From a virus, in IMG/VR virus record IMGVR_UViG_3300032241_002059, positions 1-23,497 of that record: a DNA stretch of 23,497 bases; one strand, given 5' to 3'. Position 1 is the first letter of the stretch; each line of letters opens with the position of its first letter. The notes under the pieces were generated by a model. It had not been told where the DNA came from. It was given only the letters and a program-made list of their open reading frames with translations, and did not search any database. Below are positions 1,040-18,349 of the stretch, piece by piece. The translations under genes and the position numbers were made by a program.

Positions 1040-1065
1040 GGGGAGGCGAAAGTCTCCCCTTTTTT
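1040..1065 (+). terminator. Intrinsic terminator for gp32
   Basis: GGGGAG (1040-1045) pairs with CTCCCC (1054-1059). The stem is extended by a G-T wobble and a C-G pair closing a GAAA tetraloop (1048-1051), followed by six T (1060-1065). The T-run overlaps the TAA of the convergent tape-measure-like gene (1064-1066). The leftward strand has no U-run after this stem, so the terminator works mainly for rightward transcription. Confidence 0.9.
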
Positions 1066-3655
1066 ATGCATGCATTCCCAGAATAGCAGCAGCTGATGCT
1101 GGGTTATCTTGCATACCAGCATTAGTAACTTTAACCCAAAAGTCATTATTATGTGCTGATGGTTCTATATTTGCTGCTTGCTGTTGACCACCTTTAGCAG
1201 CTGTTTGTTGGTTGATAACAACTGGTGCAGCTTGAGGTTGAACTTGAGCAGTTTTTGCTGCTGGTTGTGATTTGAAATGCTCATCATAAACTCTAGATAT
1301 ATCTCTATCTGATGATGATACTTCTCTAGCAGCCATTTGTCCTTCTGTCGGTTTTGCAGAAATGTCTGTTGGGCTTGACTGAGGTGAAACTGAAGTTCCT
1401 CCAGCTCTATTATAAGTATCCATCCAACTATTTGCATATGTTTCTGGAAGCATTCCACGATTAGCGGCTAAAGCTGCAGCTGAGATATTACCTTGTATGT
1501 TTCCAGTATACCAAGCTAGTGGTACAGCTCTAACATCTCCACCAGATTGTTTTAAAATATCTTGAACATATCTTCTGGCAACTTGATCTTGAATGTCAGA
1601 TGGAGCATCTTTTGCTCTTGCATATTTTTCGCCTATTCCATATTTTTTTGTTAAAGATTTCCAAGTTGAATCTAGAAATTGATATGCGCCTGAAGCAGTA
1701 CTTTCTGTATTGAATGCTGTGTAATTATTTCTAGATTCTTTCATTCTAATTGTGGCTAGAATTTTTTCCACTTGATCATTACCAGGACCATTGCCGCTTA
1801 CTCTATCCCATAAAGAAGAAAATCCACTTTCACCGACATATGAACCTATAAGTTCTCCAGCAAACTCAAATGCAGGTATTGCAGCAAGACTTAATCCAGC
1901 TGAAAATGGAGCAAGTGCTCCACCAACTACAGCGCCAATGCCAGCACCAATTGCTCCACCAGCAACAGCACCACCAGCACTACCTGCCAGACTAACTGCA
2001 CTTTTCTTTAAATTCTCAGCATTAACTTCTTTACCTTCCACAAAATAACTTGCAGCCTCAAATAGTGCGCCAAATCCTGCGAATTTTCCAGCTTTACCTA
2101 AAGCGCCTTTCAATGCTTTACCTGCACCTTCAGAAAGATATTTTCTTGCCAGTAATCCTTTTGATGATTTGACTGAATTTAATAATTCTGGATCTCTGAC
2201 AATATTCAGAGCTTCTTGTTCAGAAATATAAGTTTTGGAAACTTTATCATAATACATTCCATTTTTCTCAACAATTCCAGCTCTTCTTAATTGTTTAATT
2301 TGAGCTTCTTGAATATTGCCTCTTAAACCTTGTTCTTCAAAAAATTGGTTTATATTTTTATCTTTAATTTCTTCACCAATATTTCCATTTGCGTCAACTT
2401 TATGAAAAGAACCAGTTTCTGAATTAAAAGTAATGTTATTTTTTTGCAGAGCTTGTTTTTCAACATTAGATAGAGACTGATACATCTCGCCTCTAGCTTC
2501 TCTATAAATCTTATGCTGCTCTGATGCAATATTACCGTGCATTTTTTCTTGAGCTTTTAATTCTTGAAACGGTTTTCCTCTTGTCCCACGTTGTGCTGAT
2601 TTTGCAGCATCTCTAGCTAATCGAGCTTCTGTAAATTTCTCAAGAGCTTGTTGTGATCTTTGCGCAGCGCTCATAGTTTGCTCGCCGAAGGCACCAATTC
2701 CACCTCTTCCGATCATCCCTGCTTCTTTAAAAAAGGTAGATTGAATTGCTGCTGCACCTGTTCCAAAAACAGCCATTCTACTAAAACGTCCACCTGCTCC
2801 CATTGCTCTTGCAGCTAAAGCTTCTTCTGCAGCAACGGCAGCTTTGCCACCACCTCTACCCAATAATTTCTTTATTCCGAAGCCAGCAAGTCCAAGAGCG
2901 CCTATGGTTTCAGCTATCTCTTCAACTCTATTAAGCAACCCACCTTTACCGCCATTATGTTGTAGAAGATCTAAAATTTGATCTAACTTGCCGTCAATAT
3001 TCTTTTCAAAATCTACCATCTCATAATGTCTTTCGGCTTGTAATGCTTCTATTTGATCAATATCGAGATTGCCTGTTCCACCTTCTTCCATTAGTTTGAA
3101 ATCTTTATAATTTTTTATTTCTTGTATTTGACTTTTTAGATTTGAGATTTCTAATAGAACTCCAGCTTCTGGTATTCTAGTGGCATAATCTGGCTCATTT
3201 TTCGTAGCAGTTTTTGGAACTACTTGTTGAACATCATATATTTTTTCTTTTGATTTAATTGATGAAGATTTAACACGATCTGAAACATTTGATATTTGTT
3301 TTAAAATTCTACCAACATCGTTTTGAGTCTTATCAGCAGTTTTTTGTACCTTTGAAATACTCTTTTCATTTTTGTTGATTGATTTTTTAACTTCTTTCAA
3401 CTCACTTTCAATAGAATTAATCTTTTTAGTTTGAGCTTTAGTGTCAGCTGTTTTGTCTGATGCTGTTTTTGATTTAGTTGTTGTTTTAGTAGTAGCACTT
3501 TTACCAGCCTCACCAAAAAGCGATGTCATGATATTCATTTTAATTGTTTGTGCAATTTCCTTAGCATCACTAGCATCTATATTTGGATCTTGTGCTCTTA
3601 TGATCGCTGATAGCGCCTTAATAGAAAATCCTGTTGGTGTTACTTTGCTTACCAT
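1064..3655 (-). CDS. Tail tape-measure-like protein with a lytic transglycosylase-like domain
   Basis: 863 residues, read as the tail-length tape measure (T4 counterpart gp29, 590 residues). Residues 40-75 are Lys/Thr/Ser-rich. A predicted coiled coil follows (about 78-128). The middle has two Gly/Ala-rich hydrophobic stretches (about 250-300 and 552-605) of the kind seen in tape measures that enter the membrane. Residues about 625-745 resemble the lysozyme-like/SLT-Rpf fold: a candidate catalytic Glu at 640 in KESRNNY, then SGAYQFLDSTW near 651-661, and AWYTGN near 690-695. The last 100 residues are Gln/Ala/Pro-rich and low in complexity. The ATG (3655-3653) overlaps the end of the preceding -1 frame by 7 bases, and the Shine-Dalgarno is weak, which suggests translational coupling. 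The position right after a chaperone-like frameshift cassette is classical for tape measures. The family is inferred from architecture and context; the alternative is a separate virion peptidoglycan hydrolase. Confidence 0.72.
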   Translation of the reverse strand: MVSKVTPTGFSIKALSAIIRAQDPNIDASDAKEIAQTIKMNIMTSLFGEAGKSATTKTTTKSKTASDKTADTKAQTKKINSIESELKEVKKSINKNEKSISKVQKTADKTQNDVGRILKQISNVSDRVKSSSIKSKEKIYDVQQVVPKTATKNEPDYATRIPEAGVLLEISNLKSQIQEIKNYKDFKLMEEGGTGNLDIDQIEALQAERHYEMVDFEKNIDGKLDQILDLLQHNGGKGGLLNRVEEIAETIGALGLAGFGIKKLLGRGGGKAAVAAEEALAARAMGAGGRFSRMAVFGTGAAAIQSTFFKEAGMIGRGGIGAFGEQTMSAAQRSQQALEKFTEARLARDAAKSAQRGTRGKPFQELKAQEKMHGNIASEQHKIYREARGEMYQSLSNVEKQALQKNNITFNSETGSFHKVDANGNIGEEIKDKNINQFFEEQGLRGNIQEAQIKQLRRAGIVEKNGMYYDKVSKTYISEQEALNIVRDPELLNSVKSSKGLLARKYLSEGAGKALKGALGKAGKFAGFGALFEAASYFVEGKEVNAENLKKSAVSLAGSAGGAVAGGAIGAGIGAVVGGALAPFSAGLSLAAIPAFEFAGELIGSYVGESGFSSLWDRVSGNGPGNDQVEKILATIRMKESRNNYTAFNTESTASGAYQFLDSTWKSLTKKYGIGEKYARAKDAPSDIQDQVARRYVQDILKQSGGDVRAVPLAWYTGNIQGNISAAALAANRGMLPETYANSWMDTYNRAGGTSVSPQSSPTDISAKPTEGQMAAREVSSSDRDISRVYDEHFKSQPAAKTAQVQPQAAPVVINQQTAAKGGQQQAANIEPSAHNNDFWVKVTNAGMQDNPASAAAILGMHA

Positions 3656-3855
3656 TTTCTTGATTTATTTTCCATTTCTTTTAGTTTAGCATTCTCATTT
3701 TCTTCTTTAATCTTAGCTGACAGCATTCCAATATAAGCATCTTTTTCCCACGGTATCATATCATCAAAAATTCTAAAATCAATTTTATGGTGATAAAGGA
3801 GCATAAAATTCAAATTGAAAAACTCCTTTAATCCCTCATTACCAAAGCTTAGATA
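3649..3855 (-). CDS. -1-frame extension of the gp26-like gene (chaperone T-type tail or gp51-like)
   Basis: Sixty-eight codons and a TAA run in the -1 frame relative to the gp26-like gene. No ATG precedes residue 18 of the extension. The predicted peptide is protein-like, with FFNLNFMLLYHH, then DMIPWEKDAYIGML, then a charged helix ending KSRKW. It is continuous with gp26 if ribosomes slip back one base at the T TTT TTT site (3855-3861), giving a 314-residue fusion. It ends 7 bases into the tape-measure-like gene. Lambda G/GT and P2 E/E' tail chaperones have this arrangement. Independent starts are possible: TTG at 3813-3811, eight bases after an AAAGGAG, or ATG at 3804-3802. T4 has a separate hub-assembly gene, 51, in this place, but I cannot confirm homology. 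Confidence 0.65.
   Translation of the reverse strand, partial: YLSFGNEGLKEFFNLNFMLLYHHKIDFRIFDDMIPWEKDAYIGMLSAKIKEENENAKLKEMENKSRKW
3794..3830 (-). other. 8-bp stem downstream of the slippery site, covering a Shine-Dalgarno-like sequence
   Basis: On the leftward mRNA, TAAAGGAG (3830-3823) can pair perfectly with CTCCTTTA (3801-3794) across a 21-base loop. The first arm contains an AAAGGAG that could serve as ribosome-binding site for the TTG at 3813 or the ATG at 3804. The stem begins 24 bases after the slippery heptamer, further than the usual 5-9 base spacer of frameshift stimulators. It may therefore mask an internal start instead of, or as well as, stimulating slippage. Confidence 0.4.
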
Positions 3856-4592
3856 AAAAAATCGTTGAGACCCTCCAGCACAAACTTGTGCTTAAATCCG
3901 CATTTTGGACAATCTTTATTTAACTCTTGTCTAATAGTTGGCAAGTTCTTAAAAAAGTTTGTCAATAAGTCATATTTTTCTGCAGGTAGATTCATTACAA
4001 ATTCTACTAATTCTTCTACAGTTGCATCTTTAGAGTAATATACATTTTCCTTGTCAAAAATGTAATCGATACATAATGCTATTGTTTTAAACTCATCATT
4101 TTCTTCTAAATTCTCTGCAGGGTTTGATAATTTTTGAATCACCTCAAATGTTGGATAATTCATTTGTATTCCAACATCATCATTGATCATTATCTTTGTA
4201 GAGTTCTGATCAAGATTTACTACTGGAACACTTAAAAGATCAATAGATCCATCAATTATCATTCCGCATTCTGATTTCTGATCGCCTTCTCCAATTTCAT
4301 TTTTACATTTAAAGAACACGTTTATGTTCTCACCAATTGATCTTGCTCTGAAATTTAAAAATAAAACTTCAATGTCAACGAGTGGCAATTTATCTACATC
4401 AATGTTTTCATCTAGAAGACAATTTTTAATAATTTGTTTAATCGTATTGACGACTTCATTAGCATCTGTCTGTTCAGTTGCAAGAAGCATCAGTTTTTGT
4501 TCCTTAACCAGAAATGGTCTGAACTTAACTGGGTTTTCTTGAGAAAACAGTTTCACTTCATAAGTCGGTGTCGCGATTGTCGGGAATTTCAT
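3849..4592 (-). CDS. 26: Baseplate hub assembly protein, gp26-like
   Basis: 247 residues, matching the T4 baseplate protein family of gp26 (T4: 208 residues), which acts in building the central hub. The N-terminus has PTYEVKLFSQ followed by PVKFRPFLVKEQKLML, typical of the family. Cysteines C96, C109, C228 and C231 make a Cys-x12-Cys and Cys-x2-Cys set (DCPKCGFKHKF near the C-terminus) that could bind a metal. The start has a good GAGG six to seven bases upstream and lies 19 bases after the stop of the gp54-like gene. The C-terminus reads LNDFFI, and the two Phe codons are the slippery TTT TTT. By position and architecture this protein may be the G-type member of a tape-measure chaperone pair. 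The gp26 assignment rests on motif recall. Confidence 0.75.
   Translation of the reverse strand: MKFPTIATPTYEVKLFSQENPVKFRPFLVKEQKLMLLATEQTDANEVVNTIKQIIKNCLLDENIDVDKLPLVDIEVLFLNFRARSIGENINVFFKCKNEIGEGDQKSECGMIIDGSIDLLSVPVVNLDQNSTKIMINDDVGIQMNYPTFEVIQKLSNPAENLEENDEFKTIALCIDYIFDKENVYYSKDATVEELVEFVMNLPAEKYDLLTNFFKNLPTIRQELNKDCPKCGFKHKFVLEGLNDFFI
3855..3861 (-). promoter_or_regulatory. Candidate -1 ribosomal frameshift site T TTT TTT
   Basis: The leftward mRNA has seven U in a row, phased in the gp26 frame as GAU UUU UUU AUC UAA. This is the X XXY YYZ arrangement that permits tandem slippage into -1, and the zero frame stops two codons later. The -1 frame is open for 68 more codons up to the start of the tape-measure-like gene. 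A homopolymer error in the assembly would give a similar picture. Confidence 0.6.
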
Positions 4593-4611: not shown

Positions 4612-5616
4612 TTATATTGGCAATCCACTGGCTGATGCTGATTCTTCATCAGTCAGTGGAGTAAATGGTTTACCAGTAATTGGATTAATTGGTGTTGTCG
4701 ATTCATTTGAATTTTGAGTCGATGCAGCTGGAGCTGGTGATGGTGGCGGCACAGACTGAACTGATGTTGGTGATGGAACTGCGCTAGATCCAAAATCATA
4801 ACTTGGAAGATAAGCTTCTGGACTTGGATTGTTCAGGTCAGTTATGTATGTTCTCCACTTATTGTAGTGGAATGTGACTTGAAGTTCATGTATTCTGTCA
4901 TCAGCCCAATTTAATGGTTGTGGTGCAATCGCAATAGGAAAAGCGCCAAACAGTGTTGTGATATAACTTGGAGTTCCATCAACAGTATATTGTGTTATTG
5001 TAATATCTGTTGTTGTTACTGGACCATTTTTATCTTGAGGGTATCCAACTAATCCTGTTTGAAAGTTTATAAGATAATTCATCCACCACTCAAAGAAATT
5101 TCTACCCATCATATCACCAAAACAATATAGACTTAGAGTTATTGGTGTGAACGTTGGAAAGTGTGACAATCTTTGAGTAAATGCATAATGTCTATATTCT
5201 ATTGGATTGTGATTGATCCCTGGAAGTTCTGCCATGTTACAAGCATATCGCATATCGAAATATGATGAATAGTTGTATCCAGTTCCAGAAAGCGTAGTCA
5301 TACATTTTGGTATTGGTAGATTGACTAAAAATCTACAAGTCTTGGCAAATTCATTATTGAGGTCAAGCTGAGTAAACATATTAGAGATGTTTGAAACAGA
5401 TTGACTTGTTTTCGGACTTGGTGCTTGGAATTGTCCTGAGTTGTTTTGATTATTGCTGAGGATAGAACCAAGTAGTGATTGTGCAGCTCCAGCTAAAACA
5501 GGATTTCTTATGTTTTTTGTAGCTGAGCTTACCAAGCTTCCTGTAATGTTATTGATATTTTGTTGAATAACTGTATCAGGATTAGTGATACCGACAGGAT
5601 TTAAATTAATAGCCAT
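4612..5616 (-). CDS. 54: Tail-tube-fold protein, gp54-like baseplate tube initiator
   Basis: 334 residues from the chosen ATG (5616-5614), whose A is shared with the TAA stop of the preceding gene (TAATG). An AAGG lies eight bases upstream. A longer in-frame ATG at 5703 would overlap the upstream gene by 88 bases and add an unconvincing N-terminus. T4 gp54 has 320 residues and starts tail-tube polymerisation on the baseplate. The segment TTLFGAFPIAIAPQPLNW followed by ELQVTFHYNKW parallels the gp54 stretch around TMFGGCIPVAV and FNVTFAYRV, and resembles the gp19 tube fold. The N-terminal 90 residues are Asn/Ser/Gln-rich, and the last 60 residues are a Pro/Ser/Thr-rich tail that looks disordered. 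It could instead be another tube-fold paralogue (gp19 or gp48 kin). Confidence 0.6.
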   Translation of the reverse strand: MAINLNPVGITNPDTVIQQNINNITGSLVSSATKNIRNPVLAGAAQSLLGSILSNNQNNSGQFQAPSPKTSQSVSNISNMFTQLDLNNEFAKTCRFLVNLPIPKCMTTLSGTGYNYSSYFDMRYACNMAELPGINHNPIEYRHYAFTQRLSHFPTFTPITLSLYCFGDMMGRNFFEWWMNYLINFQTGLVGYPQDKNGPVTTTDITITQYTVDGTPSYITTLFGAFPIAIAPQPLNWADDRIHELQVTFHYNKWRTYITDLNNPSPEAYLPSYDFGSSAVPSPTSVQSVPPPSPAPAASTQNSNESTTPINPITGKPFTPLTDEESASASGLPI

Positions 5617-6197
5617 TAGAATTGCCTTAGAGATTGACGTTGAACTTGAGTTGCAGAAGCTCCAATAAATTGTTCTGTTGGTAGGAAAATTGCAATTTCC
5701 CAATCGTCAGGTGCAACCTCAACAACTTTAGAATCTAAATGAGAATACAGATATCTTTTTAAGCAAGGAGCAAATTCTCTATATCTTCTTGTGCTGCTTA
5801 AAATATTATAACTGACTCTCATTTTTGTTGTTTCATCAAAATTCTTATTGTTCAAAAGATCATAAAGTTTATTCAATAAAGCTAAACGATGTTTTGATGA
5901 AATGTAATGTAAATTTAAACCAAGAAACCCATCACTATAATTTTCAATTGGAATGACCAACGGAAAACGATCATAATATGGAAGTACATCTTTTAATTTT
6001 GGATCATAGGAATAGAAATACATCTTTCCTACAATAATTCTTTTTGCGAATACATTATCGGTTGCAGAAAGAATATTTCTTCTGCTGGTTTGAAGAGTTC
6101 TTACGTTTCTTCTGAGCCAGTCTCGAGCTTTTTTGGATCTGACGTTGATATTCTCTTTCGCCAGATTATCCCTTACTTTTTCTATTAGACTTGCCAT
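5616..6197 (-). CDS. Conserved phage protein of unknown function (possibly gp2-like DNA end protector)
   Basis: 193 residues between the gp4-like and gp54-like genes. The N-terminal 50 residues are very basic, with many Arg and Lys. A conserved-looking core follows: GKMYFYSYDPKLKDVLPYYD (57-76), then FPLVIPI, GFLGLNLHYI and repeated helices with RLALLNKLYDLL. It has no signal peptide or membrane span. The start overlaps the end of gp4 by 32 bases in another frame, and its stop shares one base with the next ATG, so the three genes are translationally chained. In T4 gene 2, encoding the DNA end protector, lies beside gene 4, so a head-completion role is a reasonable positional guess. I could not confirm it from motifs. 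Confidence 0.6.
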   Translation of the reverse strand: MASLIEKVRDNLAKENINVRSKKARDWLRRNVRTLQTSRRNILSATDNVFAKRIIVGKMYFYSYDPKLKDVLPYYDRFPLVIPIENYSDGFLGLNLHYISSKHRLALLNKLYDLLNNKNFDETTKMRVSYNILSSTRRYREFAPCLKRYLYSHLDSKVVEVAPDDWEIAIFLPTEQFIGASATQVQRQSLRQF

Positions 6198-14284: not shown

Positions 14285-17200
14285 ATGGCAACAACAACAC
14301 TAACAACATCAGGATTATTGGAATCACAATTTCCAGAATTTATTGTAGCCAATAATCCAAATTTTGTTGCCTTCGTTAAGGCATATTATCAATGGCTGGA
14401 AGATTCAAACACTGGTGCTGTTCTTTTCCAAACTGATAATTTATTGAGTTATAAAGACGTAGACGAAACTACAGATCAATTTATTCAGTATTTTATAAAT
14501 GACTTTCTTCCATATTTTCCTCAAGAAATTGCAGCTGATGAACGTAAACTTATCAAAGCTGCTAGAGAATTTTATGTAACTAAAGGTAGTGAGAATTCTT
14601 TAAAGTTTTTATTCAGAGTTCTTTATAATGAAGATGCAGAAGTCTTTTATCCAAAACAAAATATTTTAAAAGCATCAGACGGTAAATGGCAAATTCCACA
14701 AGCAGTTAGATGTATTCTGGGAACTGGTGGATATCCGAGTGTTAATGTTGGTCCAAATTTTGATCCAAGTAACCTCGTTCAAAGACAAGGTGTTGGCTCA
14801 TTATCAAATACGACATGTACTATTGAGTCTGCATACGCAACCGTTGATCCACAATTCGGATTTGAAGTTATTGAAATTTATCTTTCTAACATTAATGGAT
14901 CGTTCGTTGCTGAAGAAAACTTAGTTGTAAATGGAACATACGCTAACACTGAATCGTTCTCATTCCAACAAAAGATTATTGGATCTCTTTCAAATATTGT
15001 GATCAATCCAAGTTATCAAGGATTAAACTATAACGGACCAACTTATAACTTTGACGGAACTATAAACTATCCTGGAGATCCAGTTGTTATTTTTGGCGGT
15101 TTAGCTGACACTCCTCAAGCAACTAAAGCTGTTGCATACGTTAACAATGTCAGCGTCGGATCAATCTATTCTGTTGGTACAGAAAGCGGTGGTTGGGGAT
15201 ATAGAACATTCCCTAACACTGTTGTCACTGTTGTGTCAGATACAGGTGTTGGAGCAAACGTTGTCGTTCAATCAGTAGATTACATTAACGTTGCTGCAAA
15301 CTCAATTTTTATTAATACAGATGCGATTGAATTTATCGCAAATGCAACGATTGAGTTTTACGCTAACTCTTATACAATCAATGGCATCTCTCCGTCTGGA
15401 ACTACAACACAAACTGTAAATTTAAACACAGCAACTTTCCAAGCAAATACAACTATTGATAACTTCTATAGAAACTATTATCTCCAAGTTGTTTCAGGAA
15501 CAGGACACTCAGCATCACCAAACGTTGCAATTATTGAACATTATTACTCGTCAAATCAGATTGCTGTGTTGGGTTCGCCATATTTGGGTGCAACTTTAGA
15601 CTCTACAAGTAATGTTGTTCTATATGCAGATCAATATTATGGATTTGCTAATAACCAAATCTTCATTAATGGATGCACTGGTGCAGGTAACAGCTTAAGC
15701 ACTGTAAATCTTCATAGCACAACATTCACACCAAGCGCAGTTAATGGTTACTATAACAACTCCTTAATTGAATTTGTGGCTGGAGCTGGAGCAGGTTCCG
15801 CAGGATTAATTACTGCATATAATGGTTCAACAGGTGTTGCTACATTTATACCACTCCCACAAACGCCACCATTAAGTGTGGCTCCAAACGCAACTACAAA
15901 TGCTGTTGTGTTTTACGAAAATGCTAACACAAAATTAGGTAATGCATTCCAATACACTAACGTACAAGTTGGTAAGATCTCAACAATGAACGTGATCAAT
16001 GGTGGTTACGGTTTTAAATCTAAACCAACTCTATCTCTAGATTCTCAATTTGAAACTGATTTCTCTTTAGCATATGCAGGATTCCTTGATCCTACTAATG
16101 TTTCAGAACATGCAAATACCGTACAATCTATTAGAGACATTGGTCAGATTGCTAATGTTCAAATTGTAACAGCAGGTATAGGATACGACACATCAAAAGA
16201 TGTTATTGTAATTAATAACTCTCTTGGTCACGGTGCAGCATTCAGTTTCACAACTCATCCTAATGGCGCCATCTCAACAGTTTCTGTTACAAATCCTGGA
16301 GAAGGATACACTTATCCAATCTCAACAACAACTCCAATCTATTTGGCCAACAGTGCAAATACTCAAAACGCTGCAAGCGGAACTGGAGCACAGTTAGTTG
16401 CTTATGGTTTTGATGAAGGTGCAGCCTTTGACATTTCTGTAACAAACATCGGTCAAATTTATGACTTTAGAATTGTAAGTCGTGGATTCGACTATCAAAC
16501 AACACCGAATGTCTCATTAGCAATTATTGATCTTCCTGTTGCACAAAACATTTCAGTAAATGGAATTATTGGTGTAGGGAACACAACAACAGCTATCAAT
16601 CTTCATAGCGTGAATTTTACTCCAAGCACAATAAACAATTATTATCAAAACACAGTATTGCAAATTGTGGCTGGAACTGGTTCAGGAAGCTTGCCAAACT
16701 CAGCAGTCATTAGAGACTATAATGGCAATACAGGTGTTGCTAATCTTGCTACAGCTTTAGCAGTAGCACCAGATTCAACAAGTAATTTGATAATGTATAA
16801 TGCTAATGTAACATTTAATTATCCTGCTTTATTTGAAGATGATTTCGTTTATCAAGGAGCAAACGCTAAGACTGCTACATTTACAGCATTCTTTGACAAG
16901 TTTGGTTCTCAATATGCAGGACTATTATCTAATTCTACAATAAGACTTTACAACTATACTGGAACATTATTGCCTGGTTCAAATCTTGTATTTTCTAATG
17001 CTGCAATTAATGTTTCTCCAGTTCCAAATGGAACTTCTGTTCTTGCTACTGTTTATGGTAACGGTAGAGCAAGAGCTAATGCGATCTTCTTAAACGGATT
17101 GATTCAATATCCAGGATACTATTTAAATACTGATGGGCAATTAAGTGCGGATCAATATTTACAAGCTAATACTGAATACCATAATTTCTCTTACATCGTT

Positions 17201-18349
17201 CAAGTTAAAGAAGCATTAACAGAATACAAAAATACCTTATTGAACATTTTACATCCTTCTGGAATGCAAGTTCTTTCTTATATGAGTATTCCTGATAATC
17301 AGTTTAGTCAAATTGATTTAACTGCAAATCTATCAACTTTTAATATTCTAAATGGTTCAGTAACATCTAATTCATATTGGTCTAATGCAGTTTTAGTTGG
17401 CGCAAGCACATACTTTGCTGCTAATGCTAAAGTTGGCGATTTTGTTGTTGTTGGATCAGGGCTAGGAAACAGAGAACAAGTTAAAATTATTACGAATATT
17501 ACCGACAATACTCATTTGACCATGGAAAGTAATACAATGTTCTTGGGTCCAGGATATTTGGAGACCATCAACTATAGCGCATCAAACTATACGATTTCTC
17601 AGTTCAATACAACTGGAAACGCAATCGCTGTAAACTTGAATACTGCTAATTTTATCGCCAACACAACGGTCGACAATTATTACAATAATGGCACAATTAA
17701 AGTCACAAGCGGTAGTGGTTATATTTCTGATGCTGTTGGTTTAATTACTGGTCCAGGCAATACCTCGAGCCATGCAAATTTAAATACACTAACATTCACA
17801 GCCAGCCACGTAGATGGTTATTATGATGGATATTATTTAAAGGTTGTAAGTGGAACAGGCGCTTCAGCTTCTCCAAATACTGCAAATATCACAGCTTATT
17901 TTGGTGCAAATCAAATCGCTGTTTTAGATACAAATCTAGGAGCAACTTTAGACTATACAAGTGATGTTGTAATTTATGCTCCGAATACTGCAACAATCGT
18001 TGGGTACTATTCAGCAAATCAAATCGCTATACTAAATACTCCATTGAAAGCACCATTAGATTCAACAAGTGATGTCATATTGACTATCCCTTCTGTTTCT
18101 AATACATTCTCAATTATGCCTCAAACTGAAAATGTTTATGGACAAATTCTAGTAGGAGACGGAATCGCATTTGATCTAGGTGTTGCTAATACTAGATTTA
18201 ATGCTAATGTGGTTTATATAAGCGAAAGTGGAAATGCTTTAACTGTGGACACTCCAATCAACTTGTTGACAACTAATGTTGCTAACCAGTCATATTACAT
18301 CTATCCGCAGTTTAATGGAACTTCATATACATTTATTAATAATCAATAA
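14285..18349 (+). CDS. 7: Baseplate wedge protein, gp7-like, very long with internal repeats
   Basis: 1354 residues against 1032 in T4. The N-terminus carries a pattern common to wedge gp7-like proteins of T4-type phages: SQFPEFIVANNPNFVAFVKA, YYQWLED, then FLPYFPQEIAADERKLIKAA, REFYVTKGSENSLKFLFR and ASDGKW (about 12-140). The C-terminal part has AHSYLSPSG-type landmarks: KEALTEYKNTLLNILHPSGM (about 976-995). Between and after these are GYG-type beta repeats (about 293-338, 561-590, 618-678, 722-750) and an 80-residue module repeated five and a half times (see repeat entries). It starts one base after the gp6 stop without a Shine-Dalgarno, so it should be coupled to gp6. The gp7 assignment rests on gene order and the N-terminal pattern. 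Confidence 0.78.
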   Translation: MATTTLTTSGLLESQFPEFIVANNPNFVAFVKAYYQWLEDSNTGAVLFQTDNLLSYKDVDETTDQFIQYFINDFLPYFPQEIAADERKLIKAAREFYVTKGSENSLKFLFRVLYNEDAEVFYPKQNILKASDGKWQIPQAVRCILGTGGYPSVNVGPNFDPSNLVQRQGVGSLSNTTCTIESAYATVDPQFGFEVIEIYLSNINGSFVAEENLVVNGTYANTESFSFQQKIIGSLSNIVINPSYQGLNYNGPTYNFDGTINYPGDPVVIFGGLADTPQATKAVAYVNNVSVGSIYSVGTESGGWGYRTFPNTVVTVVSDTGVGANVVVQSVDYINVAANSIFINTDAIEFIANATIEFYANSYTINGISPSGTTTQTVNLNTATFQANTTIDNFYRNYYLQVVSGTGHSASPNVAIIEHYYSSNQIAVLGSPYLGATLDSTSNVVLYADQYYGFANNQIFINGCTGAGNSLSTVNLHSTTFTPSAVNGYYNNSLIEFVAGAGAGSAGLITAYNGSTGVATFIPLPQTPPLSVAPNATTNAVVFYENANTKLGNAFQYTNVQVGKISTMNVINGGYGFKSKPTLSLDSQFETDFSLAYAGFLDPTNVSEHANTVQSIRDIGQIANVQIVTAGIGYDTSKDVIVINNSLGHGAAFSFTTHPNGAISTVSVTNPGEGYTYPISTTTPIYLANSANTQNAASGTGAQLVAYGFDEGAAFDISVTNIGQIYDFRIVSRGFDYQTTPNVSLAIIDLPVAQNISVNGIIGVGNTTTAINLHSVNFTPSTINNYYQNTVLQIVAGTGSGSLPNSAVIRDYNGNTGVANLATALAVAPDSTSNLIMYNANVTFNYPALFEDDFVYQGANAKTATFTAFFDKFGSQYAGLLSNSTIRLYNYTGTLLPGSNLVFSNAAINVSPVPNGTSVLATVYGNGRARANAIFLNGLIQYPGYYLNTDGQLSADQYLQANTEYHNFSYIVQVKEALTEYKNTLLNILHPSGMQVLSYMSIPDNQFSQIDLTANLSTFNILNGSVTSNSYWSNAVLVGASTYFAANAKVGDFVVVGSGLGNREQVKIITNITDNTHLTMESNTMFLGPGYLETINYSASNYTISQFNTTGNAIAVNLNTANFIANTTVDNYYNNGTIKVTSGSGYISDAVGLITGPGNTSSHANLNTLTFTASHVDGYYDGYYLKVVSGTGASASPNTANITAYFGANQIAVLDTNLGATLDYTSDVVIYAPNTATIVGYYSANQIAILNTPLKAPLDSTSDVILTIPSVSNTFSIMPQTENVYGQILVGDGIAFDLGVANTRFNANVVYISESGNALTVDTPINLLTTNVANQSYYIYPQFNGTSYTFINNQ
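15376..15921 (+). repeat. Two tandem copies of an ~80-residue module in the gp7-like gene
   Basis: Copy A (about 15376-15630) and copy B (about 15655-15921) share the order VNL(N/H)(T/S)-TF, then nnYY, then a V(V/A)(S/A)G(T/A)G segment, then an ITAY or IIEHY turn, then a TLDSTSNVVLY-type end. Copy A has TTIDNFYRNYYLQVVSGTG and GATLDSTSNVVLYA. Copy B has AVNGYYNNSLIEFVAGAGAG and ATTNAVVFYEN. Confidence 0.7.
16551..16806 (+). repeat. Third copy of the gp7-like module
   Basis: This copy has NTTTAINLHSVNFTPSTI, then NNYYQNTVLQIVAGTGSG, then IRDYNGNTGVANL and APDSTSNLIMYN. It is closest to copy B (INLHS/VNLHS, FTPS, DYNG/AYNG, NTGVA/STGVA). It is separated from B by GYG-type repeats. Confidence 0.65.
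17587..18093 (+). repeat. Two further copies and a half copy of the gp7-like module
   Basis: Copy D (17587-17778) has AVNLNTANFIANTTVDNYYN and KVTSGSGY but lacks the end of the module. Copy E (17779-17988) has HVDGYYDGYYLKVVSGTGAS and GATLDYTSDVVIYA. Half copy F (17989-18093) has YYSANQIAILNTPLKAPLDS. DNA similarity is still visible: GCAAATCAAATCGCT occurs identically at 17906-17920 and 18014-18028, and bases 15590-15610 match 17942-17962 at 20 of 21 positions. Confidence 0.7.

Follow-up and report, generated by a model that had tools for sequence, protein, structure and literature searches.

A candidate -1 frameshifted G/GT-type tail assembly chaperone pair at the gp26-gp51 locus of a T4-superfamily phage

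Known chaperone pairs and the gp26 locus

In phage lambda, a -1 frameshift near the end of gene G adds a T domain, and the two products, G and GT, bind the tape measure and are both absent from virions (PMC5009743). The same review gives T4 as the exception to the conserved G-T frameshift. For T4-like phages, the study of Vladimirov, Gautam and Davidson (2022, Virology 566:9-15) is cited in the PRFect paper for phages whose short chaperone has its own gene and whose long chaperone is encoded by a second, fused gene (PMC10885494), and in the paper on phage Adele for polyT slippery sequences in TAC-N genes (PMC12846349), TAC denoting tail assembly chaperone. Here we describe a locus of this type in viral DNA from IMG/VR record IMGVR_UViG_3300032241_002059 (positions 1-23,497; this whole stretch of 23,497 nt is referred to as the window), in which a gp26-type gene is followed in the -1 frame by a homologue of the gp51 tail. 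The window shares with the T4-like systems of the 2022 work a short and a predicted long chaperone form and a polyT site; unlike the window, certain T4-like phages encode the short form in a gene of its own and the long form in a fused one, a point stressed in a citing text. The original prediction, made from the window's sequence, treated such a pair as not known to have been described for gp26 and gp51 of the T4 superfamily. This claim of novelty fails, since the 2022 paper already covers T4-like tail assembly chaperones and a 2025 paper mentions polyT sites in TAC-N genes. T4-like tail assembly chaperones are thus already known, and the window is a new example.

Two further systems are close. 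The TAC locus of the Vandenendeviridae (phage Adele) has, like the window, a conserved -1 extension before the tape measure and a T-run site, although its motif is GTTTTT and not T TTT TTY (PMC12846349). The Escherichia coli dnaX signal comprises an upstream internal Shine-Dalgarno (SD) element, a heptamer and a downstream hairpin (PMC5600365), the same three-part plan as the candidate T4-like signal, in which the hairpin is indicated by relatives of the window; its product is unrelated and its heptamer is A AAA AAG. In T4 itself, gp26 and gp51 are tabulated as hub assembly chaperones in a 2010 review, according to which the finished particle lacks gp51 (PMC3004832).

Genes on the window's minus strand run from a head closure protein through a DNA end protector and a tail-tube-like protein to gp26, which is followed by the -1 frame extension and an 863-aa open reading frame (ORF). 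The elements of the locus, all on the minus strand, are as follows.

3849..4592, minus: gp26-type ORF (short chaperone, G / TAC-N), 247 aa; PF12322 E 2.1e-54, phrog_150 baseplate hub 1.2e-60
3871..3876, minus: GGAGGG, putative internal SD-like stimulator 9 nt 5' of the heptamer; codon constraint and SD counts
3855..3861, minus: slippery heptamer T TTT TTT in gp26 phase; conservation of in-phase T TTT TTN
3849..3851, minus: zero-frame TAA, end of the short product; read from the sequence
3649..3855, minus: -1 frame extension (T domain, gp51 homologue), 68 codons and stop; phrog_634, alignment to T4 gp51, -1 frame constraint
3794..3830, minus: possible 9-bp stem starting 24 nt past the heptamer, a weak candidate stimulator; folding z -1.78
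1064..3655, minus: 863-aa tape-measure-like ORF with a transglycosylase-like domain; PF06737, phrog_1047

The gp26 ORF ends GGT CTC AAC GAT TTT TTT ATC TAA; its terminal layout is GGAGGG, the 9-nt spacer TCTCAACGA, then T TTT TTT ATC TAA. Seven T occupy 3861-3855 and the zero-frame stop is the second codon past TTT TTT. Read in the -1 frame, the sequence continues for 68 codons (YLSFGNEG...KSRKW) to a stop at 3651-3649, which overlaps the ATG of the 863-aa ORF (1064-3655) by 7 bases; the predicted fusion is 246 + 68 = 314 aa. Direct reading bears out the original prediction as to the coordinates, the phase of the seven T, the nearby zero-frame stop, the 68-codon -1 ORF and the 7-base overlap. 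It noted no ATG near the start of the -1 frame, in which the first ATG is the 18th codon past the heptamer; it did not mention a TTG three codons earlier that has AAAGGAG upstream. Two overlapping ORFs, the second in the -1 frame, thus lie directly 5' of a tape-measure-like gene, as in G/GT. The lambda heptamer differs from that of the window, and lambda G is smaller than gp26.

We consider, with a probability of about 0.91, that this locus of a T4-superfamily phage encodes a frameshifted pair of G/GT-type tail assembly chaperones. Translation would mostly terminate at 3849 and yield gp26, the short form. Some ribosomes, probably held up where GGAGGG pairs with 16S rRNA, would shift to the -1 frame on T TTT TTT and append the gp51-type tail of 68 residues, which makes the 314-aa long form. 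We infer this frameshift, its rate and the effect of the SD element from the features described below. If the products act as lambda G and GT do, the two forms together would coat the tape-measure protein from the next ORF, tail-tube subunits would be recruited through the long form's tail, and both forms would depart before completion of the tail; the interactions with tape measure and tube are the least tested part of the proposal. The locus places a strong recoding signal in an abundant phage group.

Conservation of the heptamer and the -1 frame

Relatives were retrieved with gp26 or T-domain peptide patterns that all lay clear of the slippery site. The sample of 265 sequences comprised the window, 257 IMG/VR loci and seven loci from phage records (L023, L024, L026-L030); it excluded L001, a fragment of the window itself, and T4 (L025). 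Two IMG/VR scans gave the best 80 of 585 and the best 80 of 591, with nearer relatives over-represented, and some contigs were present twice; deduplication at 80% left 147 sequences, 145 with the heptamer.

The T ORF was recognised in 262 of the 265 sequences and was in the -1 frame in every one of these. Three were set aside: L056, whose contig ends 23 nt past the stop; L028, whose T falls below the profile; and L238, which has an internal deletion. An in-phase T TTT TTN was present in 260 of the 262 (145/147 after deduplication), as TTTTTTC in 206, TTTTTTT in 52, and TTTTTTA and TTTTTTG in 1 each. The original prediction had asked whether the T run, its phase and the -1 ORF persist in related phages, and they do, mostly with TTTTTTC. 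By comparison, the heptamer occupied 15 of 32,691 other in-phase codon positions in the 145 ORFs, whose own usage predicts TTT for 70% of Phe and a preceding codon ending in T in about 61% (89/145). The 145 were chosen for having the heptamer, so that 145/147, with the two misses included, is the fair count. Conservation of Phe-Phe alone was rejected as the cause of the T run: elsewhere, only 3 of 157 Phe-Phe pairs are in-phase T TTT TT. Homopolymers are a usual site of error, and a mistake in sequencing or assembly, or decay of the gene, might be proposed on that ground; this was rejected as extremely improbable, since the same frame arrangement recurs in all 262 sequences in which T was recognised, and 206 of these carry TTTTTTC rather than seven T. 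As a separate observation, L238 (1486-2268) carries gp26 and T in one frame across the apparent internal deletion, which removes the slippery region.

Synonymous constraint was assessed at 241 testable gp26 columns in the 145 sequences. The six most constrained were residues 244, 240, 3, 246, 247 and 245; residue 244 provides the T preceding the run, residue 240 is GAG and residue 3 lies near the start codon. The sequences are related, but this relatedness is common to every column. Constraint extends past the heptamer, where the ratio of nonsynonymous to synonymous differences (pN/pS) over the first 14 codons was 0.56 in the -1 frame versus 1.03 and 2.64 in the other frames, a result from seven window-clade sequences (21 non-independent pairs) over a region that precedes the window's first available start.

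These data bear on an alternative in which the gp51 tail is a separate gene, with its own start codon or translational coupling. Public records annotate gp51 as a separate coding sequence, and none of the 18 phage records examined annotates a joined gp26-gp51 coding sequence. The window and L002-L005 share a TTG that is T codon 15 and is preceded by AAAGGAG, and 47 of the 145 deduplicated loci, the window not among them, have a T-frame ATG between -4 and +5 nt of the gp26 stop. Among records inspected singly, Limestonevirus, K444 and 1.255.O have an ATG at this position and no heptamer, and phiM12, P10VF, PC-Liy1 and RHph_I1_9 have both. A start codon of some kind occurs within the first 20 T codons in all but 7/145; within the first 12 there is an ATG in 56/145 and any start codon in 84/145, and in 5/145 a start lies upstream of the slip site. 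However, an SD-like start within the first 25 T codons was found in only 3/145, the window's TTG included, and this TTG is TTA in L006-L011 and L015. Conversely, 98/145, including the window, have no ATG at the stop yet carry the heptamer, the slippery codons are themselves constrained, and so is the -1 frame ahead of the window's first start. An own start for gp51 in the window was thus judged unlikely, the TTG being variable among relatives and SD-like starts rare. In the 47/145 phages with an ATG at the stop, coupled initiation may operate besides or instead of slippage and a free T product is possible; these phages slightly lower our confidence in frameshifting and slightly raise that in a separate start, which we nevertheless regard as improbable. 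The programmed -1 frameshift put forward by the original prediction accordingly gains support, at the level of sequence, from the conserved heptamer and phase, the conserved -1 peptide and the lack of a conserved SD-bearing start.

Candidate stimulators around the slippery site

Residue 240, the second most constrained of the 241 columns, is Glu encoded by GAG in 91 of 119 sequences against a gene background of 24%; nine other conserved Glu columns gave 0.13-0.46. This preference for GAG places GGAGG directly ahead of a nine-to-ten-base spacer. With the SD criterion and spacing taken from PMC4066793, an SD-like element was found at the published spacing in 108/145 sequences compared with 2525/29,936 control positions, and was missing in 37/145. 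In the window, GGAGGG stands 9 nt ahead of the heptamer, a working distance of the dnaX type. Among the passages listed in a literature search that covered the 2022 paper through citing texts, none described an SD or hairpin stimulator for gp26/gp51; the SD and hairpin details of the T4-like signal may perhaps be new.

Downstream of the heptamer, codon-preserving shuffles of T codons 3-18 gave a mean folding z of -1.80 (standard error 0.18), with p <= 0.05 in 69/143; the mean for codons 1-16 was -1.59, and those for five control stretches were 0.01, -0.24, -0.34, -0.54 and -0.23. In S-PM2-type relatives a long stem starts nine bases downstream of the heptamer. Covariation in relatives was weakly positive, the covariation score being reached by 24/500 and 35/500 shuffles for sets of 11 and of 6 chosen by eye among 27 sequences. 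A stem-loop of the dnaX type would begin some 5-10 nt past the heptamer; the window's best stem, starting at +24, has a z of -1.78, with 10/200 shuffles equally good, and the hairpin of the window's clade (5 sequences) has a covariation term of 0, with 1/28 pairs changed on both sides. A downstream structure signal is thus present in relatives and is not established for the window.

The long form might instead be made by transcriptional rather than ribosomal slippage on the T run. The window does have seven T, and UUUUUUU is underrepresented in E. coli genes, for which slippage is one possible reason (PMC4066793). However, 206 of the 262 sequences carry TTTTTTC, with six T only, while an SD element at ribosomal-pausing distance and the stem signal point to ribosomes; we regard transcriptional slippage as very unlikely.

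The extension, T4 gp51 and the spread of the signal

The 68-residue extension matched phrog_634, 'baseplate hub assembly catalyst' (gp51), over profile positions 61-118 of 121 (E 3.5e-14), the comparison with gp51 that the original prediction had proposed; a Pfam search with the tail returned nothing significant (best E 0.059). The short product of the window thus has the PF12322 domain, and the predicted long one a gp51-type tail, as in the T4 gp26/gp51 family. T4 gp51 matched PF12322 over residues 1-201 (E 3.9e-52) and phrog_634 over residues 147-246, and the T profile aligned with its residues 198-244 (E 2.3e-5, probability 76%). From these matches, T4 gp51 is a gp26-like domain and a T tail in one continuous protein. 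In hhalign, T4 gp51 as a single sequence aligned weakly and off register with the gp26 profile, whereas a two-sequence gp51 profile gave E 1.3e-7 over profile columns 12-224. In T4, two separate genes that have diverged encode gp26 and gp51, and gene 51 of RB43 is also in one piece. The 2010 review calls T4 gp51 essential, with its function unknown (PMC3004832); the present reading gives it a concrete role as the long chaperone, consistent with the 2022 work. The same reading explains cyanophage 'gp51', reported to have just about 20% of its normal length (PMC3037559), as the frameshifted tail of gp26.

A gp26 model built with AlphaFold2 from 44 aligned sequences had a confidence score (pLDDT) of 92.3. 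Upon realignment, the best four of 782 chains were 3FGX (Z 7.9), 3KLU (6.8), 2OB9 (6.8) and 5IR0 (5.4), the next scoring 2.9, and all four alignments fell inside gp26 residues 1-96. 2OB9 is the HK97 tail assembly chaperone (85 aligned, root-mean-square deviation 4.3, gp26 residues 1-91); 3FGX and 3KLU we take to be chaperone relatives. The modelled N-terminal domain of gp26 thus resembles the HK97 tail assembly chaperone, with a moderate Z. Among viral predicted structures, the model matched a protein labelled 'baseplate hub assembly chaperone' and gp26 proteins. The T-domain model was helical and of middling confidence (pLDDT 76.5). The gp51 homology and the chaperone-like fold favour the proposal that gp26 and gp51 are a tape-measure chaperone pair.

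Besides the alternative starts described above, several observations weigh against a frameshifted chaperone pair. A Foldseek search of the gp26 model against the PDB gave nothing at E <= 0.001, and all fold Z values are below 8. The RNA control stretches were imperfectly neutral, reaching p <= 0.05 in 4/142 up to 25/144, that is, above 5%, and in the window the synonymous-shuffle z is about 0 over the first 48 nt, where a hairpin is not clear. Within the window's wider clade, L014 (~5739-5750) reads GAT TTT ACC TAG, allowing a single-codon T TTT slip only. A T-like -1 ORF is kept without the canonical heptamer in four Ackermannviridae records (L029, L267, L268, L275), Vibrio phage K444 (L028) and TSW001 (L271). 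Finally, genetic studies cited in the 2010 review support gp26 in the hub, unlike a departing chaperone (PMC3004832).

The heptamer is present in the named phage records S-PM2, Syn33, phiM12, Milchi, P10VF, PC-Liy1, phiAS5, RHph_I1_9 and P-SSM5, and absent from Magnus, K444, Sa157lw, Ds3CZ, TSW001 and 1.255.O. Sequences without it (for example GAA ATT TTC ATT TAA) include some with no nearby start codon and others with an ATG overlapping the stop; their T likeness was judged partly by eye, the profile matching Sa157lw at E 4.5e-4 and K444 at no better than 0.014. The situation that the original prediction named as contrary to it, a separate T gene with no slippery sequence, is approached only here, outside the window's clade and in a few records. 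In Streptococcus phage GXN1 (L276 ~3121-3442), a T-like stretch follows gp26 in the +1 frame (E 1.8e-5, probability 78%), and CGT CCC CGA ahead of the stop suggests a +1 shift at CCC_C.

In Chrysonvirus phiAS5 (L270 ~3247-3417) the T ORF is in the -1 frame and is accompanied by T TTT TTC; Aeh1 is presumably kin to this phage. If Aeh1 is alike, its gp51, the only one missing in a 2010 comparison (PMC3037559), was perhaps overlooked because it is frameshifted as in phiAS5. In a tree of 29 rows, T4 gp26 and gp51 were not reliably placed (long branches), and the order of events was therefore drawn from distribution instead. On this basis it is about an even proposition that a dnaX-like signal (internal SD, U UUU UUY and hairpin) was the ancestral control of chaperone ratio in the T4 superfamily, from which T4 escaped by splitting the products into genes 26 and 51, while Ackermannviridae and the Streptococcus phage use other recoding routes.

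Turning to the neighbouring genes, the 863-aa ORF matched PF06737 at E 1e-5 (26.5 bits, slightly below the cut-off of 27) and phrog_1047, tail associated lysin, at E 6.9e-4; a PADLOC scan of it gave no match. Its position and length point to a tape measure. Directly upstream of gp26 is a tail-tube-type protein (4612-5703, minus strand; phrog_45 tail tube, E 7.8e-25), and a tube gene is annotated at the equivalent place in the phiM12 and Milchi records. Elsewhere in the window, a 1354-aa baseplate-wedge-like ORF (14285-18349, plus strand) contains repeated modules with NLHS..TFTP..NGYY motifs, recognised by eye in the translation.

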